DNA of 64,000 nt from Lacrimispora xylanisolvens (lineage in GTDB: Bacteria > Bacillota > Clostridia > Lachnospirales > Lachnospiraceae): contig CP070896.1 of NCBI GenBank assembly GCA_017084465.1, positions 1,364,001 through 1,428,000 of the forward strand, written 5' to 3'. Positions 35,042-57,900 of the stretch are shown here, piece after piece (the stretch's first letter is position 1; every line of letters starts with the position of its first letter). The position numbers and the translations under genes were made by a program. Under the pieces are notes generated by a model that worked only from the letters and a program-made list of their open reading frames with translations, was not told where the DNA came from and ran no database searches.

Positions 35042-35591
35042 CTACTCAGATCTGTGCTGGGTGGATACGACCCGGCTGCAGCTTAATTTTTTTTCTTTTG
35101 TCACCCTGGACCCGAAAACCTGCCGTCCCAAAAAGGTAAGAGGGTAGATATCATAGGACAGGGTGGCATTTAAATCCATATAGCGGGTACGGCTGATTGC
35201 CGTTATGGTGTCAGCCGGTGTACGTCCTGGCACTGAAAAGGGCTTTTCCACATTTTTCATTACTGCCTTTGCATCACTGACGGTTAAATTCTCCGGTAAA
35301 AAAGCCCCAAAAGCTGGCTTCTTTTATTCTTTCCACCAAAGGGTCTGACACCGTATTTCCGGTAAAGACAGCGCTGGACGGGCAGGTATTAAGAGGATCG
35401 GAGTCCCCGAAATCGGATGCCTGGACAGACCAGCTGGAATACTGGTAACTCTGATCGAAAACAGTCTGCTGGTATGTCATCCAGCCCACTTCGATTATGA
35501 AAAGAATGATCATAATAAAAATAGGAAAGACCAGTGCAAATTCTACCATTCCCTGTCCGTTATCCTGTTTCAAAATCACAAAACATTTCAT
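35042..35591 (-). CDS. TadE-like pseudopilin (one frameshift)
   Basis: About 182 residues. The N-terminus QDNGQGMVEFALVFPIF followed by IMIILFIIEVGW carries the prepilin-like site (G then xxxxE-F) and a long hydrophobic helix of the TadE family. The one-base shift near 35290 joins it to a tail with RTRYMDLNATLSYDIYPLTF. Processing by the prepilin peptidase encoded at 43897 is expected. Confidence 0.78.
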
Positions 35592-35614: not shown

Positions 35615-36136
35615 CTATGGAGTATAGCCGCTTATATAAATATCACGGGAATAAACAGGTGTTTTCACTTTATATGTATTGCCCAGAAAGAATGTACCCC
35701 AAAAGGTTACTGCAGGGCGTTCATAAGAAAGCTGCAGCTGTACCTCAGTATACTCATAACTACCGGGGCGCACTTCAAACTGGCTCCCAAAATCAGATGG
35801 ATTGGCCAGATCACTGGAGTAAACGTAATAACTGTAATCGTTCTTTTGACTGCTTCCTGCGTTCAGTTCCTCAATATTAACTTTTGAAGGATCCAGCCGT
35901 TCGGTGAAATTCTGCATAATTATCTGTGTCAGCTTATTGCTCACCGTACCCGAAGAAATATCAGAATAGTCCAGACGACTGATACATTCGCTGGCAGCAC
36001 TGCTTAATGTCATCTTTGTGTTCATGCAGATAAAAAAATCCACAGGAGCAGTAAAGAGCAGCACTATAATAGGCAGAATCAGGGCAAATTCCAGAATCGA
36101 CTGCCCGTTTTCATCCTTACCGTTAAAGTCAGCCAA
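35615..36136 (-). CDS. TadE-like pseudopilin
   Basis: 173 residues, intact. The site DENGQSILEFALILPIIVLLF matches the TadE-type start, with Glu at the position needed for assembly. A C-terminal beta-rich domain follows (YTEVQLQLSYERPAVTFWG). The start is TTG at 36136 with GGAGG 9 nt upstream, overlapping the end of the coiled-coil gene by 8 bp. Confidence 0.82.
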   Translation of the reverse strand: MADFNGKDENGQSILEFALILPIIVLLFTAPVDFFICMNTKMTLSSAASECISRLDYSDISSGTVSNKLTQIIMQNFTERLDPSKVNIEELNAGSSQKNDYSYYVYSSDLANPSDFGSQFEVRPGSYEYTEVQLQLSYERPAVTFWGTFFLGNTYKVKTPVYSRDIYISGYTP

Positions 36137-38042: not shown

Positions 38043-38960
38043 CTACATACCTCCAAACATTTCCATAATTGACATAACTGCCGGTCCCAATAGAACAATG
38101 AAGATGACAGGAAATATAAACAGCACCATGGGAAGCAGAATCTTAACAGACAATTTCTGTGCCTTTTCCTCTACATTCTGTTTATGGGTCTGCCGGATTG
38201 CAGATGCCTGAATGGACAGTATATTCTGCATGGAGGATCCCATTTCATCTGCCTGGACCACAGCAGTGACAAAGGTCCGGATCTCCATATTTTCACACCG
38301 GTCTGCAAATCCATTCAGGGCATCCTTTCTCCGGCGGCCCAGGGAAATTTCCCTCTGGGTAACATCCAGTTCGTCGATGAGGGGACCACTGGATTTCTCT
38401 ACCACATATCCCAGAGCCTGGTCAAAGCCCAGTCCAGCCGAGACACTGACACTTAATAAATCCATCATTTCCGGAAGCTGGTGATATAGTTGTGCTTTCC
38501 GTTTTTTTATTTTGCTCTTTAAATGAAAGCGGCTCACTACAATTCCGGCATAAAGGCCAAGTGCGCCATAAAGGACAGCCTGTAAAATGCCTCCCGTCCT
38601 TCCGTATAAAGCTCCCAAACCAATGCAGACTGCTGTAAAAAAGGCAACTGCCGCACTGTAGTTTTGGGATTTCATATGAATACCAGCCTGTCTGAGCTGC
38701 TGCTCCATTCTCTCCAGAGCTGCAGGATTTTTAGGGGCAAACACAGAAAATATGGTAAGGATACGGTTAAAAACCGGTCTCATGATCCGGTCTGTAATGG
38801 AAACATCCAGTTCCCCTGTTTCTCTCTGCCGTTTTCCCATGTCCTCCACAGATTTTAAGCGTCTGTTTAAAGCAAGGGTTTTAGCAAAAGCGGTTGAGAA
38901 AAATAGATCCACAAAAAAATAAGCAAAAACTGCGCCGGCTAAGGCTGTCAGAAATATCAT
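38043..38960 (-). CDS. tadC: Tad pilus inner-membrane platform protein TadC
   Basis: About 305 residues of the GspF/type II secretion F domain family. An N-terminal helix (MIFLTALAGAVFAYFFVDLF), a central pair (AVAFFTAVCIGLGALYG and AVLYGALGLYAGIVVSRF) and a C-terminal one (LPMVLFIFPVIFIVLLGPAVM) surround the F domain (MMDLLSVSVSAGLGFDQALGYV and MGSSMQNILSIQASA). The start at 38960 has AGGAG 8 nt upstream. It pairs with TadB to form the platform for the CpaF motor. Confidence 0.88.
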   Translation of the reverse strand: MIFLTALAGAVFAYFFVDLFFSTAFAKTLALNRRLKSVEDMGKRQRETGELDVSITDRIMRPVFNRILTIFSVFAPKNPAALERMEQQLRQAGIHMKSQNYSAAVAFFTAVCIGLGALYGRTGGILQAVLYGALGLYAGIVVSRFHLKSKIKKRKAQLYHQLPEMMDLLSVSVSAGLGFDQALGYVVEKSSGPLIDELDVTQREISLGRRRKDALNGFADRCENMEIRTFVTAVVQADEMGSSMQNILSIQASAIRQTHKQNVEEKAQKLSVKILLPMVLFIFPVIFIVLLGPAVMSIMEMFGGM

Positions 38961-38980
38961 CTTTTCTTCTCCTGATTTCA

Positions 38981-39917
38981 TCAAAACTTAATATCTACGA
39001 TTTTATTGATTATTAAGAAGCCCAAAATCTCCATTCCTCCGCCAAGGATCAGCAAAAAACGTCCTGGCAGAGATGAAAACAGCGGTGAAATATACTGTGG
39101 ATTGGCAAACGAAAGTGCAAGCAGCAACAGGACCGGAAGTGCGCCAATCACCTGTCCTGTGATCCTGCCCTGTGCGGTCAGTGTCTTTATGGTTCGCTTA
39201 ATTGTCAGTCGGTCCCGAATCGTCTGGGAAATGATATCCAGTATTTCTGCCAGATTTCCGCCCACTCTCTGCTGGATAATAACAGCTGTGGTGAGCAGCT
39301 TTAAATCATCACTCTTCATTCGATCAGCTACTATCAGAAAAGACTGTTCCAGTTCCGCACCAAGCTTTAACTCCCTGACGATGGTGTTCAGTTCACCGCC
39401 AATGGGATCGGCTAAATCCCCGGAAACATTCTCCAGTGCCTGCTCAAAGGAAAAAACCGGCTCTTAAACCATTGGAAAGCACCATCAGTGCATCCCCTAA
39501 CTGAGCCTCAAACATGGAACGCTGTTTGGCAGCTGCTATTTTTAAAAAGAAAGGGGGAACAACCAGTCCTATCAGGAAAAGCCCCATGCACTGAATCAAA
39601 TTCGGGGCAAACGCAAACAAAAGCATGGCAGGTGCAAAGATAAGTAAGAACCAGATCATGATAAACTCCTCCGGACGCAGTCTGATTCCGGATAAGCTAA
39701 CTTCTTCTTTCAGCTTCTTTGAAATATGTATGAAACGCAAAAGCTGTCTGTCTTTTTTTTCTTCTCCGACAGATGATACTGCAGTCTCTTTTTTCACCTC
39801 ACTTAAATCACTTAACCTCTGATTGATCTGCAGCTGTTTTTTTAACAGGAATTCCAGAATTATCTCAATGGCGCAATAGCAAAATAACGCCGCTGAAGCC
39901 AGACAAACCATTTCCAT
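38981..39917 (-). CDS. tadB: Tad pilus inner-membrane platform protein TadB (one frameshift)
   Basis: About 311 residues of the same F-domain family. Pieces: an N-terminal helix, MIWFLLIFAPAMLLFAFAPN, the F domain RAGFSFEQALENVSGDLADPIG and VGGNLAEILDIISQTIRDR, and C-terminal helices. A one-base shift in the A/T-run near 39460 splits RAGF from SFEQ. GGAGG is placed 6 nt before the ATG, right after the cpaF stop. Confidence 0.88.
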
Positions 39918-39919
39918 TG

Positions 39920-41280
39920 TTACCTCCGTTCTGCAAGGAACCAGTCATCCCTGCAATAGCCTCCATTATCTCTGATCTTATCAAGAATCTTCGGATGAAT
40001 TCCCGTAGGTTCAAATTTACCTGCAATTTTTCCGTTTCCATCTGTACCGTTCTGGCGGAAACTGAAAATATCCTGCATCGTAACGGTATCGCCCTCCATA
40101 CCAACTACCTCAGATATATTGATAATCTTTCTGCTTCCATCCCCGTAAACGGGACTGATGCACGATTAAGTCAATGGCTGAGGTAATCTGCTCTCTGATG
40201 GCTTTTGCAGGCAATTCCATTCCAGACATTAAAACCATTGTTTCCAGACGGGATATCACATCTCTGGAAGAATTTGCGTGCACCGTAGTCAGGGAACCGT
40301 CATGACCTGTATTCATGGCCTGAAGCATATCCAGCGTCTCTCCTGACCGGACCTCTCCCACAATAATCCGGTCCGGACGCATTCTAAGTGCATTCTTCAC
40401 CAGATCCCGGATGGAAACAACCCCTTTTCCTTCGATGTTGCTTGGACGCCCTTCCAGAGTTACCACATGATCCTGTTTCAGCTGGAGCTCGGCCGCGTCC
40501 TCTATGGTCACAATTCTTTCACTGTCAGGAATATAACCTGATAATACATTTAACAGTGTGGTTTTTCCTGAACCGGTTCCTCCTGAAACAATGATATTGC
40601 AGCGCCCCTTAACTGCTGCCTCCAGAAATCCTGCCATCTGGGAAGACAGGGAACCATATCCGATTAAATCTCCAATCTTAAGGGGGGTGGAAGAAAATTT
40701 TCTGATTGTGATGGAGGGACCTTTCAAAGCGATGGGCGGAATGATGGCATTTACACGGGAACCGTCTGCCAGGCGGGCATCCACCATGGGGGGTGGCTTC
40801 ATCACACCGTCTTCCCACGGATGAAACGATCCGGTTGATTACCTTTAACACATGGGCATCATCCCGGAAACTGGCAGGTGTCTGTTCCAGTCTTCCTCCC
40901 CGTTCTATGTATATCTGTCTTGCACTGTTCACCATGATTTCAGAAATAGAATCATCCCGCAGAAGCGGCTCTAAGGGGCCCAGTCCCATGACATCATCAT
41001 GAATTTCCTGAGCAAGCTTTGATTCTTCCAGACGGGTCAGGCTCTCCTCCTGTCTGGCAATAGCCTGATGGATGATTTCCATAACATCAATGGATCTACC
41101 ATTGGCATTATCCGAGAATCGGTCATTGTATTCCCGTATTACCTCCTGGTGAACCGTCTGCTTTAATTTGTCATAATTTTTATCCGTTCTGTTTCCCGGC
41201 TCCGCGCTTGAAGCGCTGAATGCCTTTGAAGCTGAATGGTTTGTTTCCTTTGGCTGACCCAGACGAGATACCCACTCCAT
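39920..41280 (-). CDS. cpaF: Tad pilus assembly ATPase CpaF/TadA (two frameshifts)
   Basis: About 453 residues. The secretion ATPase has Walker [18 protein letters not shown], the Asp box [15 protein letters not shown], Walker [20 protein letters not shown] and the His box [14 protein letters not shown]. The N-terminal domain starts [12 protein letters not shown]. One-base shifts fall near 40800 and about 40125-40140. The tail after the second is the frame that ends [14 protein letters not shown] at 39920. It powers pilin polymerisation, working on TadB and TadC. Confidence 0.9.
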
Positions 41281-41283
41281 TGC

Positions 41284-42480
41284 TTATACAGTCTCCTTTC
41301 CTTTTTGAAAGAATGACAGCCGTTTTTTTTTCCTGCTTTTACCATTTCTGCAACCTTCGTTCATTCCTTCCAGCCGGTCTGCCATATTGGAAATTTCTTT
41401 GCAGATCTTACTTTTCGGATGCGACAAAGCAAGGGGCTGACCTTGATTTGCTGCTGTCGCGGCCGATTTCTCATCATAGGGAATGGAACCCCATACCGGC
41501 ATGCCAAGCACACGGGAAACATCGTTGTCTGATATTCCATATCCACAGTTCTTTCCAATAATCAGTCTGATTTTCTGTTTATCCGTCAGTTCTGCCAGCA
41601 CCTGCAGACTTTTCTTCGCATTGTGCAGTGCGGGCACATCTTTTCCAGTTACAAATAAAACAGAGGAAGCACAGTCAATGCAGCTTGCGGATGTATCATC
41701 AAAACCCGAAACTGCATCGACGATTACATAGTCATAGTAAACCCGAAGCGCCGCAATGATGCTCTCCGCCTGCCTGGCAGTGATGGATGCCCCATATTCC
41801 GGGCTGTGGGGATTGGGAAGAAAGTTCACTCCGGAAAGGTGGAGAGACAAAAACTGCCGGATTGTATCCACGTTTGGATTGCTCTGTTCCTGTATTAGTT
41901 CCAGAATTGTATTTCTCGGGTTCATACCAAGCAGGATACCTACATCTCCGGACTGAAAGTCATAATCAAGAATAACTACTTTATTGTTTTTCTGTGCCAG
42001 CTTAATTGACATGTTTACAGCCAGAGTTGTCTTTCCCACTCCAGCCTTTGGTCCAAAGACCATAATCACTTTTGATTTGGAAGACTTGGCTCCTGTATTC
42101 TCCAGTGCCAGAATTCGGTTTGATTCATTGCTGTAAATTCCTTTTAATTCTGCAATCAGATTAATTGGCTCTATGGTTTCAGGCAGAATATAGTGGACTC
42201 CGGACTGCAGGATCTTATACATCAGATCGCTGTCTTCCAGATCAGAGAGCACAATCGGAACGGAGCGCGGGCGCAGCAGATATATCTGCTGGCAGGATCG
42301 CAGAGCCATGGTTGAAGTATCCGTAATCAGAATCAGATCCGGCATCGTCCGGTTTATCTCATTGAGAACCTGATTCTCATCCACCACATTTCCCACTATG
42401 GTGATCTCCTCGTCTTTTATCTGCGTTTTGATCTGTGAACATTTCTCCGGTATTCCCAGGAGCAGAACTTTAATTTTCAC
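41284..42480 (-). CDS. cpaE: CpaE/TadZ-type receiver-like and MinD-like ATPase
   Basis: 398 residues. An N-terminal pseudo-receiver domain (IKVLLLGIPEKCSQIK, TMPDLILITDTSTM) precedes a MinD/ParA ATPase with deviant Walker A (FGPKAGVGKTTLAVNM) and VVILDYDFQSGDVGILLGM. The lysine-rich end (RKKKRLSFFQKGKE) could touch the membrane. Such proteins place the Tad machine in the cell. The start is GTG at 42480, with AAAGGGG 9 nt upstream; a TTG further up is less likely. Confidence 0.88.
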   Translation of the reverse strand: MKIKVLLLGIPEKCSQIKTQIKDEEITIVGNVVDENQVLNEINRTMPDLILITDTSTMALRSCQQIYLLRPRSVPIVLSDLEDSDLMYKILQSGVHYILPETIEPINLIAELKGIYSNESNRILALENTGAKSSKSKVIMVFGPKAGVGKTTLAVNMSIKLAQKNNKVVILDYDFQSGDVGILLGMNPRNTILELIQEQSNPNVDTIRQFLSLHLSGVNFLPNPHSPEYGASITARQAESIIAALRVYYDYVIVDAVSGFDDTSASCIDCASSVLFVTGKDVPALHNAKKSLQVLAELTDKQKIRLIIGKNCGYGISDNDVSRVLGMPVWGSIPYDEKSAATAANQGQPLALSHPKSKICKEISNMADRLEGMNEGCRNGKSRKKKRLSFFQKGKETV

Positions 42481-42507
42481 AAGCTGATTCCCCTTTCCCA
42501 AAGAAAA

Positions 42508-43326
42508 CTAATTTCCTTCATAATTCTTAAGTACCGATCCACGGGGTTCGTTAACAACGCTGCTGTCCTCACGAGGTCTGAGTGCCAGCTGAATTTTACC
42601 TTCCCCGCTCTTCATAAGGGCGATCTGGGCTGCCTGGGAGGGTGTCACTTCTAATGTAACGCTTACGTATTCCTCGTCTTTATAATCTTTATTGCTGTCA
42701 AAGGAAAATGAGTTTCCAAGTGCTGCAATCTTAATATTCTGCAGGGCAATGACAGAAAATTCATTTCCTATGGAATCATTTACAATCTGGGCATTGGCCG
42801 GATTCTGCGGGCCCATAATCCTCTCCATGGCCAATCCTGCCGGAATTGCTTCTTCGCTCCCCTGCGCTGAGGATTTTAAAGTGCCTGTAAAAATAACGTC
42901 CACGTAATTTCCAACTCTCAGATTATTGGAAACTCCCTGTTCTAAATCCGTATTTATAGATACAGCCCGTTTTCCTTCCTCCAGTCTGGAGGAAAGTCCA
43001 AGGACTTCAGCATTGTCATCTGCCAGCCTCCGGTCTGTCAGCACTTCTTCCTGAAAAACATTTGTCAAACATACCTTTCCCAATACTTCCTCCGGCTTTC
43101 TGTAATAGCCCTTTGTTTCTTCATCTACCAGTACCTTTTTAAGCTTTATCATATCCTTCGTCAGTGTTGTGTAGGGACTCAGATCCTGCGCCGCAACGAC
43201 CACTTCAATTTTCTGCCCATCTGCCTGAGTCTGGGACTGATGGTTCACTGTCGTTACAAGCATCCGGTATCCGGCTATGAACACAAGGAATGCCACTGCC
43301 AATGCAATCAAACGAATTTTTTTCAC
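42508..43326 (-). CDS. cpaB: CpaB/RcpC-like pilus assembly protein with SAF domain
   Basis: 272 residues. A membrane helix (LIALAVAFLVFIAGYRMLV) is followed by an SAF domain (VVVAAQDLSPYTTLTKDMIKL, EVLTDRRLADD) and an RcpC-type beta domain with GNYVDVIFTGTL and EVTPSQAAQIALMKSGEGKIQLALRP. The start is GTG at 43326 with GGAGG 7 nt upstream. There is no secretin in this single-membrane organism, so CpaB probably acts within the wall zone. Confidence 0.87.
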   Translation of the reverse strand: MKKIRLIALAVAFLVFIAGYRMLVTTVNHQSQTQADGQKIEVVVAAQDLSPYTTLTKDMIKLKKVLVDEETKGYYRKPEEVLGKVCLTNVFQEEVLTDRRLADDNAEVLGLSSRLEEGKRAVSINTDLEQGVSNNLRVGNYVDVIFTGTLKSSAQGSEEAIPAGLAMERIMGPQNPANAQIVNDSIGNEFSVIALQNIKIAALGNSFSFDSNKDYKDEEYVSVTLEVTPSQAAQIALMKSGEGKIQLALRPREDSSVVNEPRGSVLKNYEGN

Positions 43327-43363
43327 CTTAATTCCTCCCTGGTATTACACCTCATTACAATTC

Positions 43364-43406
43364 AAGACGAGGCTCGCAGATGTTTACTGAATATTCGCCT
43401 CGTCTT
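43364..43406 (-). terminator. Stem between flp pilin and cpaB, possible attenuator
   Basis: AAGACGAGGC pairs perfectly with GCCTCGTCTT around a 23-nt loop. No U-run follows on the minus strand. It may protect or trim the abundant pilin mRNA and reduce read-through into the machinery genes. Confidence 0.5.
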
Positions 43407-43444
43407 TATATAAGCAACAGCCGGTTTGATTTTTTATCCCTTTT

Positions 43445-43609
43445 TTACGGCATTGATGTATTTATCTTATCAAATGTACCCTGAACCTTACCACCAAGTG
43501 CCTGTAATCCAACAATAACAGCAACAGCAATCAGTGCGAGAATTAAACCATATTCCACCATTCCCTGTCCGCTTTCCTCAGAAACAAATTTATCCCAAAG
43601 TTTTTTCAT
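43445..43609 (-). CDS. flp: Flp-type major pilin
   Basis: 54 residues. The sequence carries the Flp processing site, G14 followed by QGMVEY, and a helix GLILALIAVAVIVGLQALGG. Cleavage after G14 by the peptidase encoded at 43897 would leave about 40 residues with Glu at mature position 5. GGAGG lies 8 nt before the ATG. It is the more canonical of the two pilins and the likely fibre subunit. Confidence 0.92.
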   Translation of the reverse strand: MKKLWDKFVSEESGQGMVEYGLILALIAVAVIVGLQALGGKVQGTFDKINTSMP

Positions 43610-43722
43610 ATTTTTCACCTCCCCATCTTCTGTGTATTTAGAATTAATATAAACTTCATTATACCAATTTCCATTTTTTATCTTTCATATGTTCTAACCA
43701 AACCGGCTGGTTACTACAAACA

Positions 43723-43884
43723 TTACGGAAACACAGGAAGCAGACTGTTCTGAATCAGATTAAAAATCTTAACCGCCGCCTCTGACATATTTCCGAAGGT
43801 AATCGCGGCCACGATCACAACTGCTGCAAACAGAGCTGCATATTCTACCATTGCCTGTCCATTTTCAGATCTTAAGCGTTTCAT
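43723..43884 (-). CDS. Second Flp-type pilin
   Basis: 53 residues. The processing site is G9 followed by QAMVEY, with helix AALFAAVVIVAAITFG. It is shorter at the N-terminus than the pilin at 43445, and its tail SEAAVKIFNLIQNSLLP is hydrophobic. It may be an alternative or minor fibre subunit. GGAG lies 3-4 nt before the ATG. Confidence 0.9.
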   Translation of the reverse strand: MKRLRSENGQAMVEYAALFAAVVIVAAITFGNMSEAAVKIFNLIQNSLLPVFP

Positions 43885-43896
43885 ATTCTCCTCATT

Positions 43897-44574
43897 TTAT
43901 AAAATAGTGGTTGAAATGTACGGCCAGAGCAATGCAATCAGAAAGCCCGCCATGATGTGTCCGCACATGGGGAACGTGCTGTCCCGGACTAAAAAACCAT
44001 ATTTCATGCCTGCCAGACAATAAAATCCGATCACACAGGCCATTCCGGTCAGGAAGTAAAAGACTCCGGGAAATCCCACCGTTATTCCAATAATCATGGC
44101 CAGCTTTACGTCTCCCATTCCAACTCCGGCAGTTCCTTTCCTTACATAGGTGAACAGCATTGTCAGGCCGAAAATAACAACAACCAGTACCATTGCTCCG
44201 GCGGAACTCAAAAGCCCTGCAAAGCCGTCTGAATGTATGCGGTATGTAATACCTGCTGCCAGAATCACCCACAGCATTTCATTTGCGATAATTCTTATTA
44301 ACCTGTCCACACAGATACCAAAAGCTGCAATATAGCAGATGAACACCGTAAATATGGCGTGATTAAACGGTAATAAATAGCAGGACAATCCTGTAACGCC
44401 TGTGGTGAAAATAAGACTGAAGCCTTTCCACCGGAGACCGGGGATTTTTAACGGCCTCGGATATCCTTTCCGCCCACATTTATAACAGGCAAAGGAGTAT
44501 GACAAATCCGGTATAAAATAACCAACCAGACTGCTCATGCCGGTTAAAACGGCAGTACCTAAAATTCCATTCAT
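43897..44574 (-). CDS. Prepilin peptidase, TadV/CpaA-like
   Basis: 225 residues, mostly hydrophobic. The two catalytic Asp of type IV prepilin (aspartic) peptidases are D90 in ICVDRLIRI and D155 in GMGDVKLAM. A single CxxC (C30, C33) is a remnant of the zinc site of longer peptidases. It is the first gene of the Tad operon and begins 68 bp from the left arm of the invertible segment. GGGGGGAG precedes the ATG. Confidence 0.9.
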   Translation of the reverse strand: MNGILGTAVLTGMSSLVGYFIPDLSYSFACYKCGRKGYPRPLKIPGLRWKGFSLIFTTGVTGLSCYLLPFNHAIFTVFICYIAAFGICVDRLIRIIANEMLWVILAAGITYRIHSDGFAGLLSSAGAMVLVVVIFGLTMLFTYVRKGTAGVGMGDVKLAMIIGITVGFPGVFYFLTGMACVIGFYCLAGMKYGFLVRDSTFPMCGHIMAGFLIALLWPYISTTIL

Positions 44575-44641
44575 CTTCTCCCCCCATGTTTCTGATCTTA
44601 TAAGGTATGTATGCTGGTTTGATGACCTGCTTATGATCAGT

Positions 44642-44669
44642 TACAACAGAATACCTCTTTTGTTGTAAA
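44642..44669. repeat. Left 28-bp inverted repeat of the Tad promoter switch
   Basis: The arm runs from TACAACAGAATACC to CTCTTTTGTTGTAAA and matches the reverse complement of 44868-44895 at 27 of 28 positions. Each arm is an imperfect dyad (TACAAC ... GTTGTA), like the two half-sites of a tyrosine-recombinase core. Confidence 0.95.
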
Positions 44670-44720
44670 TAAAAGAAAATATAACCAGAGGTGGGCCTTT
44701 TATAAAAAAAAGAAGGACAC

Positions 44721-44764
44721 CGCAAACAGGCTGGGGATTTTTTCACAACTCCAGCCTGTTTGCG
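44721..44764 (-). terminator. Strong hairpin inside the invertible element
   Basis: CGCAAACAGGCTGG pairs perfectly with CCAGCCTGTTTGCG around a 16-nt loop. On the minus strand a T-run follows after about eight bases. In the present orientation it should block read-through from the recombinase gene into the Tad operon. Confidence 0.65.
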
Positions 44765-44816
44765 CTATCCAAATTCAACAAATTTATACAATTAAATTAG
44801 TTTATTAAAATAATTG

Positions 44817-44845
44817 TAGACTTTTAAGCATTTATGTAGTATATT
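44817..44845 (+). promoter_or_regulatory. Promoter in the invertible element, now facing away from the Tad genes
   Basis: TAGACT and TATATT with a 17-bp spacer match the consensus at 4 of 6 and 5 of 6 positions. A very AT-rich stretch upstream could act as an UP element. Reading rightward, it meets only the 3-prime end of the recombinase gene in antisense. Confidence 0.6.
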
Positions 44846-44867
44846 AAATAATAGATTCGACGTATTT

Positions 44868-44895
44868 TTTACAACAAAAGAGGTATTCCGTTGTA
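44868..44895. repeat. Right 28-bp inverted repeat of the Tad promoter switch
   Basis: Mirror of 44642-44669 with a single mismatch (CCGTTGTA against CTGTTGTA). It lies 35 bp past the recombinase stop codon. Confidence 0.95.
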
Positions 44896-44930
44896 TTGTG
44901 TGACAAGTAGATCCAATTGCTCTAGTATTT

Positions 44931-45758
44931 TTAAATGTGCATGACCACTTTTTCTTTTGTGTAAATACGTGTGGTATTCACGTCACTGTGTCCCAATATA
45001 TCTGCAAGTCTCGATAAATCTTTCTCCATCGTATAAAAGGTTCTGGCAAACAAATGACGAAGGTTATGAGGAAATATCTTTTCTTCAGCAACTCCGGCCA
45101 GTCTTCCCAATGCTTTCATTTCCCTCCAGATATTGCTTCTGTCAATCGCTTTTCCATTACGGGTAATAAATATCATACCGGATATAATATGCCGCTTCTT
45201 TGCGTACTCTGTTAATGCTTCGCATAATTGGCGGGTAAGAATTACGGTTCTGATCCTTCCCTTACATTCAACCTCTGCCACACCGCTTCTCACTGCTTCA
45301 ACGGTAATAAAGGGCAGTTCGGAAATCCGGATCCCACTGGAGCAGATCGTCTGCAGGATCATGGCCAGACGTTCATTTTTGTTTTCCTGTGCTGCTTTTA
45401 CCAGCCTTTTATATTCCCCTTTATTCAGCTCCTTTTGCTCTGTACAGAACACGCTTCTGCTCACCTTATAAAATCTCACCCGGCAATCCGGCCAGCCGCT
45501 GTATTTAAAAAATCCATTGACTGCAGCCAGCGCTCCGTTGGCAGTCACAGGAGAAAACCTTTTTCGCAGCTGGGCTTTCCATAAGATTACCAGCTCTTTG
45601 TTAATGCTCCTCCCCTCCAGAAAGTACGAAAATTGCTCCAGATAATACCGGTATTTTTGAATGGTAACCTGGCTCTTTTCCTGGCAGTACAGCCATTTGC
45701 AGTATTCTTTAATTACGCCTTCTGTTATAGTTCTTACTTCTTTCTGATTCTCTTTCAT
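44931..45758 (-). CDS. Tyrosine recombinase, likely invertase of the adjacent promoter element
   Basis: 275 residues of the XerC/XerD-like phage integrase family. An N-terminal SAM-like core-binding domain (about residues 12-85) precedes the catalytic domain. All active residues are present: R144 (GIRISE), K166, H231 and R234 (HNLRHLFAR), H257 (LGHSDVNTTRIY) and Tyr266. The ATG at 45758 is chosen because GGAGGG lies just upstream; the ATG 12 bp earlier has none. The stop is 35 bp from the inverted repeat. No phage or transposon genes are linked, so a dedicated DNA-inversion role is likely. Confidence 0.88.
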   Translation of the reverse strand: MKENQKEVRTITEGVIKEYCKWLYCQEKSQVTIQKYRYYLEQFSYFLEGRSINKELVILWKAQLRKRFSPVTANGALAAVNGFFKYSGWPDCRVRFYKVSRSVFCTEQKELNKGEYKRLVKAAQENKNERLAMILQTICSSGIRISELPFITVEAVRSGVAEVECKGRIRTVILTRQLCEALTEYAKKRHIISGMIFITRNGKAIDRSNIWREMKALGRLAGVAEEKIFPHNLRHLFARTFYTMEKDLSRLADILGHSDVNTTRIYTKEKVVMHI

Positions 45759-46003
45759 ATTTCCCTCCATAGTCTGCTATTGACATAATTCAGAATTGAA
45801 ATTGTTTTATGTAATTCAGTATCTGAAGATTATATCACTTATATGCAATATCGAATAATTTTTGTGATTCAGATAGCAAATCATATTATTTTGCGTAAAA
45901 TATGATAGGTTATCCATATTCTAAAAATACGTAAGGTTCTATACGATTTTATTTGGCGCTAACTTACAAGGTTTCTCATCTTCGTCTTAGGCACACGAAA
46001 GGA

Positions 46004-46110
46004 AAGGAGCTCCATAAGTTAATGGGGCTCCTCCTCTTGGGTATTAGAATATTATGATTAAATATTGTCGGTTGCATGGGTGCTGAAAGGAAAAATACAT
46101 TTCCGTGCTG
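46004..46110 (-). pseudogene. Deletion remnant of an AraC-regulator gene copy
   Basis: The stretch matches the terminator and stop region of the AraC-type gene (29266-29336) and then jumps to a match with its N-terminal coding part (about 30198-30240, including GGGTGCTGAA and TTTCCGTGCTG). It is as if about 860 bp were deleted between. It is the scar of a second copy of that regulator. About 240 bp to its right (45771-46003) holds only the recombinase upstream region. Confidence 0.6.
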
Positions 46111-46113
46111 TAT

Positions 46114-46655
46114 TTATTTTAATGTCTTCAGTTCTTTCATAATTAAAAATGTTGTAATAATATCCATACCAAGAATAAATTGAAATACAGTATAGGAAAC
46201 TGCCGTCAGTGAACTTATTTTCTGTTCTTTTTTTAATTGTAGTAACAGCGGTACTGCATAAAATGTTCCTGACAAATTAAGGGTTATTATAGAAAGCCCC
46301 ATCAGAGAATGTGTTTATTTGCTTCAGGACCCATTAAAAGAAATATTGACAACAAGAAACCCCAAGCTAATGCAGGATATGTAATTACACTCAAAGAACG
46401 GATTAAAAACAATGCATTACGGCTCTTCTCAATCTTATGCGTTATAAATAAAAATATGGCATTTCCAAAATTCAACATAACTCCACCAATAAGCATTGAA
46501 TAAAAATAAGGTGGCCACCCATATCGAAAATCAATATCGTAAATTATTAAAGCAAATGGCGGAATCCAGATAAATAAAAAAATCCATGGCCAAATAATAA
46601 GTGAAAGTGGAAATACCAGATTTAGATGATTTCTATTTATAATTAGTTTTTTTAT
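46114..46655 (-). CDS. Four- to six-helix membrane protein, unknown (possible frameshift)
   Basis: About 180 residues if two pieces are joined at 46302, where a TGA overlaps an ATG (TGATG). Hydrophobic helices include LVFPLSLIIWPWIFLFIWIP, FYSMLIGGVMLNFGNAIFLFI and LAWGFLLSIFLLMG, then LSIITLNLSGTFYAVPLLL and a last helix. The overlap could be real coupling of two genes. AAGGAGG lies 7 nt before an ATA codon, where an ATG would be expected, so the start is uncertain. I recognise no family. Confidence 0.5.
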
Positions 46656-46815
46656 TTTAAAACCTCCTTCGTAACTATTAATTGTACATGATTCAATCCA
46701 CAAGTATTCTGTGCCTTTCTTTTCTCCCCCCTGCACCCTCTTCCTTTCCCTTTTGGATTTTCTTAATTATCCCACACATGGATCGGTAAATGATCTTCCT
46801 TAGAAGACAATGCCA

Positions 46816-47786
46816 TCCGTTCTTTGGTCTGGATACCATGGTTACCGCCAGGAAATAAAACAGTCCATGCAACTGGCGGTTTCCCTGTCTGGAACTTTGT
46901 TCTTTGCCTTTTCCAGCGAAACTGAACTTTACCGGAGCCACTCCCGCGAATCTTGCCAGCTTATAAGCATTAGGAAATCTTCAGATATCTCCGATTTCTG
47001 CAATCAACTTACTAGCAATAGACGTTCCAATTCCCGGCATACTGGTCAGTTTATAGTCAAAACTAAGCAGGATTTTCTCGATTTCTTTATCAAGCCCTGC
47101 TAATTCTTCTTTTTTGATGTTCCAAATCCCGTACCAGACTTGTTGTAATATAATCTCTGGATTCCTGATATTTGCGATAAGTATTCCCATCATTCTTTAC
47201 ACAATCCAGAATCAACTCCGCTTTGTCCCCTCTGATAATCGGAGATATTTCTTTAAATTCGATTGTTAAATCTTCTGCTGTTTTTTCGGGTAGGTCTTCC
47301 AGAAACACATGGCACATTTCCCATCTATTTCGCTGAAGAACTTACTATAACTGGGAAATGGCATGAATATCTGCTCATGGAGTCCGTTCTTAAAACGGAT
47401 ACCATCTTTCACCAGTAAATCTCTCCGATTCACCAGCTGTGCCAACGTCCATTCATTATCTTTTGGCTTTGCATCTGGCAAGGTATGTAACTGGTTAATC
47501 AGAACCGTCGCCACACAATACGCATCATGCTCATCATTTTTTCGGAGCATGGGTGCGCTTTTTCTCTGATCATAGGCCAGAGCAGGATTAATGTCTTTTA
47601 CTATGTAACCATTTTCAATCAACCAGACAGCTAAACTTCTGCCGTAGCCGTATGCATTCTCCAATCCGTAAATGGGTTCAAGCCCAAGATGATTGGATTT
47701 TCTGTTTACCTTTTCTGCCAGCTTTTTAAATTCACTGGGCTTATTTTCAATAACAACAACTTCTAACTTCTCATTCCAACAGTTCA
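46816..47786 (-). pseudogene. Decayed IS110-family transposase (copy 1)
   Basis: Strongly similar to the transposases at 48932 and 52234 but broken by several shifts (near 46975, 47115, 47170, 47290). It lacks the first ~15 residues including the GIDLHKE start, and its C-terminus is replaced after SRPKNG. The 5-prime truncation coincides with the beginning of the 103-bp repeat at 47787. It cannot make an active enzyme. Confidence 0.85.
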
Positions 47787-47889
47787 TTAGGTGGCTGTCA
47801 ATAAGTCAAAAGTCACCTGTTAGGTGGTCGTAGCCGCAATGAAACCAGACAAATTTAAGTATTATAAAGGTGTCTGTGCAGGTACACCA
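47787..47889. repeat. 103-bp direct repeat, copy A
   Basis: About 85% identical to 50969-51070. Starts TTAGGTGGCTGTCAATAA and ends AGGTACACCA. It contains a hairpin (AGGTGGCT with AGTCACCT). Both copies lie downstream of an immunity gene. Confidence 0.8.
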
Positions 47890-48931: not shown

Positions 48932-50158
48932 TTACTGTTCTTTTTCTGGCAGTGGTTCCCGGTATTCCGTCTTATTTTTCATCATTCCGTACACTATGTT
49001 CACCAATCGACGCATGATGCAGACCAGTGCCTGAGACTTTGTCTTTCCTTCACCGATTTTCCGCATATAATAGTCATAAAATACCGGATGATTGGGTGCT
49101 CCGTTCTTTGGTCTGGACACCATGGTTACCGCCAGGAAATAAAACAGTCCATGTAACTGGCGGTTGCCTTGCCTAGAGCTTTGTTCCTTGCCTTTTCCGG
49201 CGGAACTGAATTTTACAGGAGCAACTCCTGCAAACCTTGCCAGCTTATCTGCACTGGAAAATCTTCGGATATCTCCGATTTCTGCTATTAACTTGCTTGC
49301 GATAGACGTTCCAATCCCCGGCATACTGGTCAGTTTATAATCAAAGCTAAGCAGGATTTTCTCGATTTCTTTATCAAGCCCTGCCAATTCTTCTTTTTGA
49401 TGTTCCAAATCCCGTACCAAACTTGTTGTGATAAAATCTCTGGATTCCTGATATTCCCGTATAGTATTTCCATCATTCTGAACACATTCCAGAATCAACT
49501 CTGCTTTGTCTCTTCTCACAATGCGTGATATTTCCTTAAATTCGATTGTTAGGTCTTCTTCCGTCTTTCCCTGCAAATGAACAGGGGACGGGTAGGTCTT
49601 CCAAAAATACATGGCACATTTCCCGTCTATTTCGCTGAAGAACTTACTGTAGCTGGGGTATGCCATGGATATCTGCTCATGGAGTCCGTTCTTAAAACGG
49701 ATACCATCTTTCACCAGTAAATCTCTCCGATTCACCAGCTGTGCCAACGTCCATTCATTATCTTTTGGTTTTGCATCTGGCAAGGTATGTAACTGGTTAA
49801 TCAGAACCGTCGCCACACAATACGCATCATGCTCATCATTTTTTCGGAGCATGGGTGCGCTTTTTCTCTGATCATAGGCCAGAGCAGGATTAATGTCTTT
49901 TACTATGTAACCATTTTCAATCAACCAGACAGCTAAACTTCTGCCGTAGCCGTATGCATTCTCCAATCCGTAAATGGGTTCAAGCCCAAGATGATTGGAT
50001 TTTCTGTTTACCTTTTCTGCCAGCTTTTTAAATTCACTGGGCTTATTTTCAATAACAACAACTTCTAACTTTTCATTCCAACAGTTCACCATCACTGCGG
50101 TATGACTTTCCTTATGCAGGTCAATCCCCACATAAAGCAGATTTTCTCTTCTCTGCAA
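48932..50158 (-). CDS. IS110-family transposase (copy 2, intact)
   Basis: 408 residues. The RuvC-like DEDD domain shows D in YVGIDLHKE, E in YGLENAYGYGR and the acidic pair in NDEHDAYCVA. A coiled coil precedes the Tnp_20 domain with MPGIGTSIASKLIAEIGD and the Ser-rich GVAPVKFSSAGKGKEQSSR. The end is EYREPLPEKEQ. The start is taken as TTG at 50158, since GGAGG lies 8 nt upstream and the frame before it is not conserved. IS110 enzymes use a bridge RNA from the element to choose target and donor. Confidence 0.9.
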   Translation of the reverse strand: MQRRENLLYVGIDLHKESHTAVMVNCWNEKLEVVVIENKPSEFKKLAEKVNRKSNHLGLEPIYGLENAYGYGRSLAVWLIENGYIVKDINPALAYDQRKSAPMLRKNDEHDAYCVATVLINQLHTLPDAKPKDNEWTLAQLVNRRDLLVKDGIRFKNGLHEQISMAYPSYSKFFSEIDGKCAMYFWKTYPSPVHLQGKTEEDLTIEFKEISRIVRRDKAELILECVQNDGNTIREYQESRDFITTSLVRDLEHQKEELAGLDKEIEKILLSFDYKLTSMPGIGTSIASKLIAEIGDIRRFSSADKLARFAGVAPVKFSSAGKGKEQSSRQGNRQLHGLFYFLAVTMVSRPKNGAPNHPVFYDYYMRKIGEGKTKSQALVCIMRRLVNIVYGMMKNKTEYREPLPEKEQ

Positions 50159-50245
50159 TTCTCTCCCTCCTGATCTTGTTTCCAACCAATCAGTTCCCGT
50201 ACCGGCAACCTCAGATGACAGCGTTAACTCATATTGAGTCCGCAA

Positions 50246-52129: not shown

Positions 52130-54178
52130 CCCGAACCCTCAGGTGGAGTACTGAGATATGCGACGAACGGTGAATTTTCGTATTCAATTAAAAAAATTAT
52201 AGCACGCCTTTGTACTGTTTTTAAATAGAAAAATTACTGTTCTTTTTCTGGCAGTGGTTCCCGGTATTCCGTCTTATTTTTCATCATTCCGTACACAATG
52301 TTCACCAATCGACGCATGATGCAGACCAGTGCCTGAGACTTTGTCTTACCTTCACCGATTTTCCGCATATAATAGTCATAAAATACCGGATGATTAGGTA
52401 CTCCGTTCTTTGGTCTGGATACCATGGTTACCGCCAGGAAATAAAACAGTCCGTGCAACTGGCGGTTTCCCTGTCTGGAGCTTTGTTCCTTACCTTTTCC
52501 GGCAGAACTGAACTTTACAGGAGCCACTCCAGCGAATCTTGCCAGCTTATCAGCATTGGAAAATCTTCGGATATCTCCGATTTCTGCAATCAGCTTACTG
52601 GCAATAGAAGTTCCAATTCCAGGCATACTGGTCAGTTTATAATCAAAACTAAGCAGGATTTTCTTGATTTCTTTATCAAGCCCTGCCAATTCTTCTTTTT
52701 GATGTTCCAAGTCTCTTACCAGACTTGTTGTAATAAAATCTCTGGATTCCTGATATTCGCGATAAGTATTCCCATCATTCTTTACACAATCCAGAATCAA
52801 CTCCGCTTTGTCTCCTCTGATAATCGGAGATATTTCCTTAAATTCGATTGTTAAATCTTCTGCCGACTTTCCCTGCAAATGGACAGGGGACGGGTAGGTC
52901 TTCCAGAAATACATGGCGCATTTCCCGTCTATTTCGCTGAAGAACTTACTATAACTGGGATATGCCATGGATATCTGTTCATGGAGTCCATTCTTAAACC
53001 GGATGCCATCTTTCACCAGTAAATCTCTGCGATTCACCAGCTGTGCCAGCGTCCATTCGTTATCTTTTGGTTTTGCATCTGGCAAGGTATGTAACTGGTT
53101 AATCAGAACCGTTGCCACACAATACGCATCATGCTCATCATTTTTTCGGTACATGGGTGCGCTTTTTCTCTGGTCATAAGCCAGAGCTGGATTAATGTCT
53201 TTTACAATATAACCATGTTCAATCAGCCAAACAGCTAAGCTTCTGCCATAGCCATAAGCGTTTTCCAATCCGTAAATGGGTTCAAGTCCAAAACGATTGG
53301 ATTTTCTGTTCACTTTTCCGCCAGCTTTTTAAATTCACTGGGCTTGTTCTCTATCACAACTACCTCTAGCTTTTCATTCCAACAGTTCACCATCACTGCG
53401 GTATGTGTTTCCTTATGCAGATCAATCCCTACATAAAGCAAATTTTCTCTTCTCTGCAATTCTCTCCCTCCAGATCTTGTTTCCAACCAAATGGTTCCCG
53501 CACCGGCAACCTCAGATGACAGCGTTAACTCTTATTGAGTCCGCAAGGGTTCGACAGCCTATCTACAACAAACCAATGGATGAAAGGACAAGTTATTTCT
53601 TTTATTGGTTGTTGATGTTAACTCTGTATGGAATGGATTGCAAGTCATTTCTGGATTTATTTTGAGGAGAAAAAACGGCAGAAAAAAGAACAGAAATGAG
53701 GGCTACAGAAATGGTATTTTTACCCCCTGTAACCCCCGGCAGCCCCATTTTACCATAGAGCCAGATTCCTGTAAATCCTATGGTTCACCATGAACCACAG
53801 GGGTAAGCAGTTATTATAAGTCAATGGCAACACAGAATTGATGTCCCATTCTCGTTTAGCCCTGTGTCGCAAAATTTCGCCCTTGTGTGATCTTTGAAAC
53901 CGATGATGGAATATGTATGCCATCCAGGCAATATAAAAGCCTTGTCGGGCAAATATGAAAAAAGAACTTTTCCTTTTCCCTGATAAATGTTTGAGTTGCT
54001 TTTACCACCTGTTCTTCTTTTTGTTACTTTAGAAAAAATCGCATCTATGGCTGTTTTTTTATATGGCTTAAGTCGCATACATGCAGCTATTTAAAAAATC
54101 TGGTTGAGGAATATTTCCGTTCATTTCCTGCACTAAAACAGGGGTGAACCATGGGGTCGAAAATGATGCAGGTTAAAG
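52130..54178 (-). mobile_element. IS110-family insertion sequence (copy 3)
   Basis: About 2.05 kb, close copy of 48828-50880 by sequence and boundaries. It separates the nuclease-type cassette from the immunity gene of the live Rhs gene. The ends share CCCGAACCCT at 52130-52139 and GATGCAGGTTAAAG at 54165-54178. About 700 bp before the transposase (53460-54178) is conserved non-coding DNA like that of copy 2. Confidence 0.82.
52234..53459 (-). CDS. IS110-family transposase (copy 3, one frameshift)
   Basis: About 408 residues once a missing base near 53315 (in an A-run, GGCGGAAAAGTG) is restored. The same motifs as copy 2 are present: GIDLHKE, YGLENAYGYGR, NDEHDAYC, MPGIGTSIASKL and KFSSAGKGKEQSSR. 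It differs at a number of residues (for example MYRKNDEH, IKKILLSF), so the two copies are not a very recent duplication. The start is TTG at 53459 with GGAGG upstream. Confidence 0.87.
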
Positions 54179-54505: not shown

Positions 54506-54925
54506 TTATTCTTCTTTCCAGTTAACCCTTAAACTCCGTTCCCCATTATGCGCAAAAAACATTACTGCTTCCCAAAGTAACGTATTATCTTCACATACCA
54601 TCCACTTTTCGAAAACCTGACCATCAATTGGAACTAAACTACTGTCTCCAGAACAATTATCATAATAATAATTTACTTCATTATATAAATCTATTATTCC
54701 AAAATGTGACAACCCATTTTCACAAAATATACTCATAGATAAATCAGTTCCAGTGTTTGACATTTCTAATCTAAGCAAGTTTCCATCATCTAAATTTTTT
54801 TTTAGTAAATCGAATAATTCTTCATTAATATCCTTATTGTTATAACTTAAAAATACCTTAGAATCATTCTGTATTATACTAACTGAAATAGAATCAATAA
54901 CAAATTCTCTAGAATTTACTCCCAT
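54506..54925 (-). CDS. Imm1-like immunity protein of the live Rhs toxin
   Basis: 139 residues, acidic. The end LLWEAVMFFAHNGERSLRVNW has the FF-x(n)-G-x-W look of Imm1 proteins, and the middle has FCENGLSHFGIIDLYNEVNYYY. The ATG overlaps the Rhs stop by 10 bp and has GGAGG 7 nt upstream, so the immunity protein is made together with its toxin. It should protect the cell from the deaminase-type domain at the Rhs C-terminus. Confidence 0.65.
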   Translation of the reverse strand: MGVNSREFVIDSISVSIIQNDSKVFLSYNNKDINEELFDLLKKNLDDGNLLRLEMSNTGTDLSMSIFCENGLSHFGIIDLYNEVNYYYDNCSGDSSLVPIDGQVFEKWMVCEDNTLLWEAVMFFAHNGERSLRVNWKEE

Positions 54926-57900
54926 CTTTTTCCTCCATCTTTTACATTACTGAAATCATTTGTACTTTTTTCAAAAGTATATGTCTTACCTGTAGCAATT
55001 TCATTTACTGTTAATGAATCTAAGTCTAAAGTTAGTGACATTTTTTTCACATCACTTCTACAATAATTACAAACAGGTTCACCCGTAACTGTTAAAGTGG
55101 CACTACCACCCATATTTCCATCCAGACGTGATTGATTCATTGCTCCAATTTCAGCATGTGCTTTGTTCATTGTATTGTTAATATTTGACAATCCTTTTTG
55201 ACCTTCAGGACCAGGTATAAGAGCATCGTTTTTATATGTTTCGTTTCTAGCTGTAGGATTGACATCATTATATTTTTTTCCATTATGCTCAAATGTTGCT
55301 GTAACTTTAGGGGGTTCAGTATCTCCCGAACCCTTAGTATCAGTATCCGCCTTAACCTTACTACCGGGAGTACCACCATCTTCTGCCGGCTCTCCCCCAT
55401 CTTTACCAGAACAATCCTTTGAATCATACCCGCTAGGATCATTATACATTACCGGATTGTTTGCACAATACGCATACAGATTCAGCCCATCTCCCCTGTA
55501 CACATCCTCCTGCAGGAATCTTCCAACAACAGGATTATAAAACCTGGCCCTGAGATAATACTGTGCTGTCTCCTGATCATACTGCTGACCCGTATACAAT
55601 ATCCGGTTTTGAATTTCCTCCGACTGGCTGCGGATAGCTCCAAAGGCATCATAAACATAGAAGTTCTCAATATTCTTTTGGCTTCCTGTTATATACGCAG
55701 TATTGTTTCTTTCATCCAGATGATACGCATGGTATCCGTCCAGTCCTTCCACTTCACTGGCCGCTAGACCATAGCCCGGAATATGCCTGCTTATAGCATT
55801 TAAGTCCTCATCTGCTTCTGCCTGCAGCTCTCCATTATAGAAGATAAAACGGGATACCTGTCCATTTACAGACTTACCAGCTCTTAACAGCTCTCCGTCA
55901 TAGAAGTTCTCCAGCTTTAACTTATCTGATTCTACTGCAGTCTGCTGACCAAACGGATTATAATGGTACCTCCTCTCTTCACCTTCTCCGGTCTCTTCCA
56001 GAATATTTCCCTGAGCATCATACCGGTATGTATAGTTTTGTACAGGCGCATTCCGCTCTATCAGCTGGTTTCTTCTATTATAGCAGTACGTCTCTTTCCC
56101 TGCAACGGATGTCTTCTCCAACCGGTTTCCACAGCGGTCATAAATATAACGAACATCGTCCCCATCATATCTCTCTTCAGTCAGACGGTTCATGGAATCG
56201 TAGCGGTAATAGACAGCGGTCTTTTGTGCACAGCTCCCTTCCACCATAACACAGACACCCTCTTTAGCGGTCCGGTTTCCATTAAGGTCGTATTCGTATC
56301 TGTAATCAAACAAAGGATTACTTTCTGACAAAAATGTTGCAAGACGGCTGATGTTTCCATCTGTATCGTACTCATAAAGAGTCTTTATTCCGCTTAAATG
56401 AGTAATTGTCTCAAGTCTTCCGTCTTTTCGGTGGCTGTATCGAACAATTTCTCTTCCTTCATCGTCTTTGATACTGCTAAGCTTTCCTCTCCAGTCATAT
56501 CCGTAATGCAGCCTTTTTCCGGTCACATCGGTCATGGTTTTTAGGCTTCCATCTTTGCCGTAAGTACAGGATATTAAGGTTTTTCCGCAGGAATTCTTTT
56601 TCATCAGCTTTCCATCGGGTCGATACTCATAGGTATAGCAGAAACCGTCAGCGATTGCTTTTTTTCTCAATCCGAAAGAATCGTACTCCCAGCTTCTGGT
56701 TACCGGATTTTTTCCTTCCTGATCACACCCTGTTTCCATCACCGGATTTCCATCTACATTATAGACTGTCCTTACCTGATTCTGATTCCTGTCTATGTGC
56801 AGGATCTTCCGGCCTTCTCTGTCATAGCGGAATATCTCGCTGCGTCCATCCTGATCAATAATCTCACAGACCTTTCCCTGGCTGTTGTACCGATAGTTTA
56901 TGACACCCCCGTTTGGATCCGTTGTACTGGTGACATTCCCCATACTGTCATAGGTGTAGGTCTCTATTCCTCCGTCTCCATTTCTGACTTTCCTGATTCT
57001 TCCCCAGTTATCCGTATCGTAATTTGTCCGGTTACCATTTCCATCGGCAACTCCCGTAATCCGCCCATTTGCATCATACGTATAAATCTGGGACGGTTTT
57101 CCTGCCTCTCTGCTTCTTAATGTTTCCAGACTGGTTAACTTTCCATGAAATCCATACGTATACGTACACTGATTTCCATCCGCCGTTCTTTTTATCTCCA
57201 GATTTCCATCCGGGAGATACTGGTTTTCTTCCAGTACGGTTCCAGCTCCATCTGTGTGTGTGAGAATATTTCCGTAAACATCATAAGCATAAGATAAGTT
57301 ATTTTTATACTCCTTATCCGATCCCTCTTCATCATTCGGTAAAATCTCTTTCCAAGCGGTCATTCTTATCGTATTCATATCTAAATACCGGCCCCAGGCA
57401 ATCTTTCACATATGTAATCCGGTTCTTTAAATCATAATCATAAGAAAGTTCCCACAATTCCCCGCCTTTTCCCTGACGAGCGATTCTTGTTATATTTCCC
57501 GCCCGGTCATAGGTTATGGAGACTGTCCTGTCAATTCCATTTTGCTTATCCAGTGTTCGTTCAGCAATCAGACGGTCGCAGGAATCATATTCTCTGATAA
57601 TCTCATAACCCTCTGGCGTTTGGATTCTGGTCCTGTTTCCATTTTCATCATAATTATAGATGGTAATCGCATATCTTGCCTCACCTTTGACAGGAGTCAG
57701 TCCGCTGTTTAGCAGTTCTTTTATCTCTGCAAGTCTCCCTGCTTTATCATAATTATAACGAATGATCTGATGTACATCTTTAGAGATAACCTTCTCTTCA
57801 TAGATCCTTTTCCCCTGTATATCATACCGGTAAATGATATCAGCTCCATGTCCGTCTTTTACCTGGATCAGCCGGTCTCTTTTATCATAAATAAAACTTA

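Follow-up and report, generated by a model that had tools for sequence, protein, structure and literature searches.

A candidate invertible promoter switch separating a tyrosine recombinase gene from a Tad pilus operon in Lacrimispora

Tad pili are widespread adhesion machines. In a 64,000-nucleotide stretch of the Lacrimispora xylanisolvens genome (hereafter the window), a Tad operon is separated from a tyrosine recombinase gene by a pair of inverted repeats, which raises the question of whether the pilus genes are switched on and off by inversion of the DNA between the repeats. From the sequence comparisons described below, we consider it very probable that the recombinase inverts a 198-bp segment and so switches transcription of the Tad operon on or off, with the pilus genes being one cargo of a clostridial cassette. 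If this is true, piliation would be a heritable all-or-none choice within a clone, and it would affect attachment, aggregation and phage exposure.

The repeats, the recombinase and the pilus genes

The candidate switch consists of the following features:

44642-44669: operon-side inverted repeat, predicted recombination site lying 67 bp upstream of the start of tadV (repeat search)
44670-44867: segment of 198 bp predicted to invert (repeat geometry, alignment with relatives)
44868-44895: recombinase-side inverted repeat, predicted recombination site (repeat search)
44931-45770, minus strand: tyrosine recombinase gene, the predicted invertase of the segment (PF00589, PF02899, active-site residues)

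An earlier, sequence-only reading of this DNA had proposed two near-identical 28-bp inverted repeats, each built like a recombinase core site, and both proposals were borne out. The arms are 28 nt each and lie 198 nt apart, with 27 of 28 positions paired, and each is a 26-bp dyad in which 10-bp half-sites surround the 6-bp centre TACCTC; the single mismatch between the arms falls in the outer half. A second repeat search extended the arms to 31 nt (94%). This is the sole inverted repeat in the window that pairs at 20 or more bases with its arms under 1 kb apart, and the best inverted repeat in 30 Markov shuffles of the window had 23 paired bases. A search of the 5.63-Mb genome that allowed up to three mismatches gave two copies of the site and none of a backwards-pattern control, so no further site of this sequence that could be flipped in trans was found. 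Rfam models searched against 43000-47000 (E up to 1) detected neither a riboswitch nor any other known RNA.

The recombinase matches Phage_integrase (E 3.5e-27) and also contains a SAM-like N-terminal domain, and its closest solved structures are Xer-like recombinases (best 4a8e, E 1.4e-27). A complete R-K-H-R-H-Y active site had been read from the sequence, and all six residues are present: R148, K170, H235, R238, H261 and Y270, which we take to form the active site, in agreement with Xer alignments. What the assembled frame does lack is the C-terminal tail. The protein is 279 aa long in the window versus 299 aa in all seven of the other Tad loci that have one (L031-L036 and L113), and in those seven the recombinase-side arm supplies the last eight codons and the stop of the gene, whereas the frame in the window stops short of the arm. 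Among the best 80 of 91 relatives, the closest named records with this protein include Lacrimispora xylanisolvens (96%), L. defluvii and L. amygdalina; as to a phage origin, one viral contig carries a distant recombinase that is 51% identical.

Farther upstream of the recombinase are three near-identical transposase-like genes (46693-47787, 48932-50245 and 52234-53486), some of which appear broken when inspected by eye and which we take to be of the IS110 type, and long YD-repeat genes on the minus strand (54916-61546), presumably Rhs-like.

On the other side of the element, the Tad genes follow one another on a single strand:

43897-44574, minus strand: tadV-like prepilin peptidase, first gene of the operon (PF01478)
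43723-43884, minus strand: small pilin-like gene (no Pfam match; its L113 relative overlaps a 35% tblastn match of Flp)
43445-43618, minus strand: Flp pilin (PF04964)
42508-43326, minus strand: CpaB/RcpC (TIGR03177 above cut-off)
41284-42501, minus strand: CpaE-like ATPase (named by position; ParA/MinD-type family matches)
40110-41280, minus strand: TadA ATPase, frame-broken into two open frames (PF00437 on the second piece)
38981-39917, minus strand: TadB, frame-broken (named by position and a weak tblastn overlap with TadC)
38043-38984, minus strand: TadC (PF00482)
35615-36136, minus strand: TadE-like minor pilin (PF07811)

Flp, the prepilin peptidase, CpaB, the CpaE-like protein, TadA, TadC and TadE are thus all represented. 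In five relatives (L031-L034 and L113) tadA and tadB are unbroken, at 452-454 aa and 310-311 aa (368 aa in L033 when counted from the first start), and a 182-aa gene (35042-35591) that is frame-broken in the window is whole in L031-L034. That several frames are broken within 15 kb of a single long contig points to indels from assembly, and the breaks in tadA, tadB, the 182-aa gene and the end of the recombinase are probably of this kind, although decay is also possible; the genome is a single contig of 5.63 Mb with a completeness of 89.5%. Past the distal end of the tad genes, at 30374-33044, lies a large surface-protein-like gene, apparently in two frames, with weak, below-cut-off matches to VWA and pilin isopeptide-linkage domains.

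Conservation and assembled orientation of the element

We compared the same locus across the genus, where 9 of 25 genomes carry this type of Tad operon (CpaB search, 64-100% identical, E 2e-111 or better) and three further genomes have a CpaB match only at E 2e-5 to 7e-4. The order recombinase, arm, segment, arm, tadV is intact in eight of the nine operon-bearing genomes, including that of the window, and in the ninth (G021) a contig starts at the innermost base of the operon-side arm, so the switch layout that had been proposed between recombinase and operon is supported. The 302 bp that this contig has in common with L. defluvii are identical. The recombinase was not found in the G021 contigs examined, and another of its contigs matches the stretch about 3 kb upstream of the recombinase in L033; our guess is that the G021 recombinase lies on a separate short contig. 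The break sits where two orientations would part, and it would be expected from a mixture of both. All Tad copies that could be read through (nine copies in eight genomes, one of them a likely scaffold duplicate) have the same orientation, and none is in the predicted ON state. The duplicate, a second copy of the Tad switch in Marseille-P2415 (L036:10001-18700), was read as a likely scaffold artefact, since the two copies are identical over about 3.5 kb, N gaps are present and the break falls at the hairpin. At E 1e-4, the Tad proteins of the window had no match in 72 other recombinase loci (L037-L108, some with little DNA) or in L109-L112 and L114-L124.

To ask which way the assembled element points, we considered three features inside the segment:

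44817-44845, plus strand: promoter-like pair TAGACT-17-TATATT, at present facing away from the pilus operon (promoter scan, conservation in eight genomes)
44703-44770, minus strand: hairpin (44715-44770) plus T run, predicted terminator (folding, alignment with relatives)
44678-44706, minus strand: weaker operon-facing promoter pair, disfavoured (conservation across eight genomes)

The sequence-only reading had named both promoter pairs and had left the ON/OFF call in doubt because of the second. Both exist in a promoter scan, but a promoter match alone means little here, given that the stretch holds 7 promoter-like pairs versus 4.3 (sd 2.2) in shuffles. The away-facing pair, which matches the sigma-70 consensus at 9 of 12 positions and has its -10 hexamer 22 bp from the recombinase-side arm, is kept in all eight genomes with one base different in L113, so that the -10 is invariant in 6/6 columns and the -35 in 5/6, compared with 94/198 columns of the inner segment. 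The operon-facing pair (44706-44678), in contrast, has two invariant bases of six per hexamer over the same genomes; it reaches at least 4/6 in both hexamers in four of the eight (the window, L031, L032 and L035) and fails to do so in L033, L034, L036 and L113. This poor conservation disfavours it as the operon promoter, though not in L035. By plain promoter score the away-facing pair is the clear winner in seven of nine Tad copies, while L033 and L035 are undecided, with the operon-facing pair of L035 scoring 9.2 against 8.9 for the away-facing one. The doubt over orientation is therefore largely settled toward OFF by conservation, and it persists by score in those two loci.

The strong hairpin that had been noted inside the segment was confirmed by folding: on the minus strand 44715-44770 reaches -37.7 kcal/mol (z -7.2) with a T run behind it, and on the plus strand -32.8 kcal/mol (z -7.4) without a T run. 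A terminator scan detected none in the element because its loop limit is 8, and the hairpin was evaluated by folding instead. The stability of this hairpin and its T run, which faces tad in the assembled orientation, raise the possibility that orientation acts mainly through the terminator, which would stop or admit transcription coming from the recombinase side, and that the internal promoter is minor. We regard this reading, which overlaps with the preferred one, as unlikely, since conservation is lower in the hairpin (33/56 invariant columns) than in the promoter hexamers (11/12) and promoters near an arm recur across the wider family of elements.

Given that the conserved promoter points away from tad and the predicted terminator points at it, the assembled state of the Tad switch is predicted to be OFF. 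In the preferred reading, a promoter switch, the recombinase would pair the two sites and exchange strands in their centres. In the OFF state the promoter would fire into the 3' end of the recombinase gene, and the terminator would halt read-through into tad. After inversion, transcription from the promoter would cross the operon-side site and reach tadV by way of a 67-nt leader, and the terminator would point in the other direction; the -10 would then lie 22 bp from the operon-side arm, and with the 28-bp arm and the 67 bp to tadV the transcript should have a 5' untranslated region of about 110 nt. If every assembly does show the OFF state, as predicted, this would explain how pili of this kind could be missed in culture.

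The same geometry could also be read with the recombinase as the main output, such that the segment inverts, antisense transcription from the OFF promoter into the 3' end of the gene sets the switching rate, and the pilus is mostly run otherwise. The conserved promoter does aim into that end, with its -10 22 bp from the arm. However, the arm, the hairpin and the promoter lie directly before tadV, with a poorly conserved leader (9/66) behind them, and the cassette precedes several unrelated operons in the same sense, which makes this alternative very improbable.

Conservation also bears on whether the element works at all. The repeats might instead be paired binding sites for the recombinase or the relic of an ancestral switch that has ceased to invert in this genus, with tad expressed from elsewhere or locked off, and the single orientation of every Tad copy read through, the shortened recombinase frame and the frame-broken tad genes of the window would all fit. 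Yet over eight genomes the arms are invariant in 26/28 and 27/28 columns versus 94/198 in the inner segment and 9/66 in the leader, a promoter that has no gene to drive while so oriented has been kept, and the contig of G021 breaks exactly at the arm. We therefore judge this explanation improbable, and a conserved, working phase switch on the Tad pilus likely, as far as comparison among genomes can tell.

A wider family of clostridial elements

If the Tad element is one member of a wider family, signs of inversion might be sought in its relatives; recombinase and inverton would together form a cassette, found at other loci ahead of capsule, cell-wall-binding and other genes. We collected relatives by a peptide-pattern scan (best 80 of 91), with 397 genomes sampled from a larger family (5 matches, E 1e-90). 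The resulting family has 79 de-duplicated elements, a few of them still near-copies; nine loci with enough DNA yielded no element, and ten were too short.

Strand exchange in the centre of a site demands that the two centres agree, and after 6 of the 79 elements had been dropped (repeats or elements without a clear dyad) the central 8-mers were equal between arms in 72 of 73, with 51 distinct centres among them, although this arm-identity test leans toward agreement because the elements were collected as inverted repeats. When arms were reshuffled, a mean of 2.3 centres agreed (maximum 7).

One pair of relatives differs in orientation. The segment of L085 matches that of L079 better when reversed (92 versus 19 forward), as it does that of L072 (108 versus 49), while its recombinase-side flank is not turned (359 versus 32) and its promoter faces its target. 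L085 and L079, whose recombinases are sisters (SH-aLRT 93), are the only pair that aligns better reversed among segment pairs scoring at least 60. Their downstream genes differ (a histidine kinase in one, an SPFH protein in the other), so the pair does not represent two states of a single locus. By promoter score with a 1.5-bit margin, 55 of the 79 elements face away from their targets, 6 toward them and 18 are undecided; without the margin the split is 63 versus 16. In four of the six toward-facing elements (L026, L050, L096 and L106) the promoter is near the far arm, whereas in L039 and L041 it is not, and these two were not counted as ON.

Contig ends give a further indication. Among 78 loci in named records, 40 lie on a contig that stops no more than 10 kb downstream of the recombinase, and in seven of these 40 the contig stops inside a site or at its edge, against 0.2 expected (P about 3e-9); when the comparison is restricted to the 17 ends within 700 bp, 1.3 are expected (P about 3e-4). 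Six of the seven are at the near arm (L047, L062, L075, L087, L091 and L105), where only the motif identifies the site, the contig having stopped short of the partner arm, and one is at the far arm (L107). Contigs may also break for other reasons: the scaffold of L036 does so at the hairpin, and at least five other contigs (L056, L059, L100, L111 and L124) end inside the segment, away from a site. The contig end of L064 was left out of the seven, as the site copy there is in the same sense and not inverted. A small-k assembler could branch at a 28-bp repeat without any inversion, but in seven relatives assembly passed straight through repeats as long as these.

L074 has one site, for which no partner was found, and a signal-peptide-like gene directly behind the recombinase; it is possibly a switch that lost its segment.

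In a quick tree of the recombinases, those with like cargo cluster, with cargo labels assigned partly by eye, and the Tad-linked ones form one clade of eight (support 99). Other cargo groups comprise transglutaminase and choline-binding proteins (Pfam for L037, the others by eye), choline-binding proteins together with a giant protein, from further genomes in the genus (L114 by Pfam), and CpsB/Wzz capsule genes (L121, L122 and L123); another sugar-transferase locus, L042, branches apart from these. Cargoes seen at single loci are proteins of the chemotaxis receptor, histidine kinase, SLH, VWA, SpaA and SpoIVB-peptidase types. Three of the 17 proteins scanned had no match at all, one of them encoded by the window's own 526-aa gene. 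Given that relatives of the cassette precede capsule, cell-wall-binding and sensor genes, the family yields a list of candidate switches in clostridia, Hungatella and Enterocloster among them, each with its sites and the state predicted for it.

The genome of the window itself carries a second such recombinase (L121, at G000:C1:4201030), which is 44% identical to the first and accompanied by 20-bp inverted repeats around a 236-bp segment; this element precedes the CpsB/Wzz capsule genes, and similar loci are found in G010 and G001 (L122 and L123).

The overlap between site and recombinase gene takes a different form in L038-L041, where the recombinase frame crosses the near arm into the segment. 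Turning the segment there changes the length of the protein in all four loci (304 to 297 or 302 to 298 residues), so that the last four to seven residues would differ between orientations, while in five other loci, three of them Tad loci, it leaves the recombinase tail unchanged. It is conceivable, though we hold it doubtful, that this is a portable clostridial cassette with a site in the last codons of its own recombinase, in which the tail would stay constant in the Tad lineage and be rewritten in the asparagiforme/Enterocloster lineage, such that the enzyme there records the state of the switch and biases its direction, and that in Lacrimispora the cassette captured a whole Tad pilus.

Comparison with known switches

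Phase-variable flagella in clostridia offer one precedent. The flagellar switch of C. difficile is 154 bp long, has 21-bp repeats and is inverted by RecV, and like the Tad element it pairs an appendage operon of a clostridium with a tyrosine recombinase (PMC5386303, in the portion available). In what is accessible of a related article, RecV acts on several sites and adjoins none of them (PMC5903667); unlike RecV, the Tad-linked recombinase adjoins its only two sites in the genome. The flagellar switch, as described in the available portions, also follows a riboswitch within the 5' untranslated region, whereas the Tad element has a promoter-like pair inside.

A closer match in geometry comes from a survey of clostridial invertons, whose available text connects inverton group 139 with a group of tyrosine recombinases (invertase group 35) and shows it flipping in read data; its member in Clostridium sp. 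D5 has 26-bp arms with 205 bp between them and shifts orientation with passage (PMC11892184). Like that group, the Tad element belongs to the class Clostridia and has a tyrosine recombinase within 5 kb, and the D5 geometry is close. On these likenesses of geometry, recombinase proximity and class, as far as the available text describes them, the Tad element family may be the group 139 family. The words "pilus", "pili" and "Tad" are absent from the main text of that survey (PMC11892184).

Pilus expression is also switched in bifidobacteria, Gram-positive gut commensals in which ON/OFF control acts by replication slippage on sortase pili, a different mechanism and a different kind of pilus from those considered here; in the part of the article available, Tad pili are named apart from the slippage-switched sortase pili, and not as switched (PMC9187656).

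The overall arrangement most resembles that of enterobacterial fimbriae. The MR/P switch of Proteus mirabilis is a 252-bp invertible element between mrpI and mrpA, and in MR/P and E. coli fim, as in the locus we describe, a recombinase gene stands beside an invertible, promoter-bearing element of about 250 bp in front of a pilus operon (PMC9820224, in its available sections). Those systems serve chaperone-usher fimbriae and use FimB/FimE-type recombinases; the Tad locus differs from both in its Xer-like recombinase, its clostridial type IVb (Tad) pilus and its predicted operon-facing terminator. Our search of open-licence PMC articles, preprints excluded, found no description of an invertible Tad promoter, and in this search, aimed at the promoter, neither the overlap of site and recombinase gene nor the predicted OFF bias came up. 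A recombinase-linked invertible promoter switch is thus already known as a device, and what appears to be new in the predicted switch is its target, the Tad pilus.
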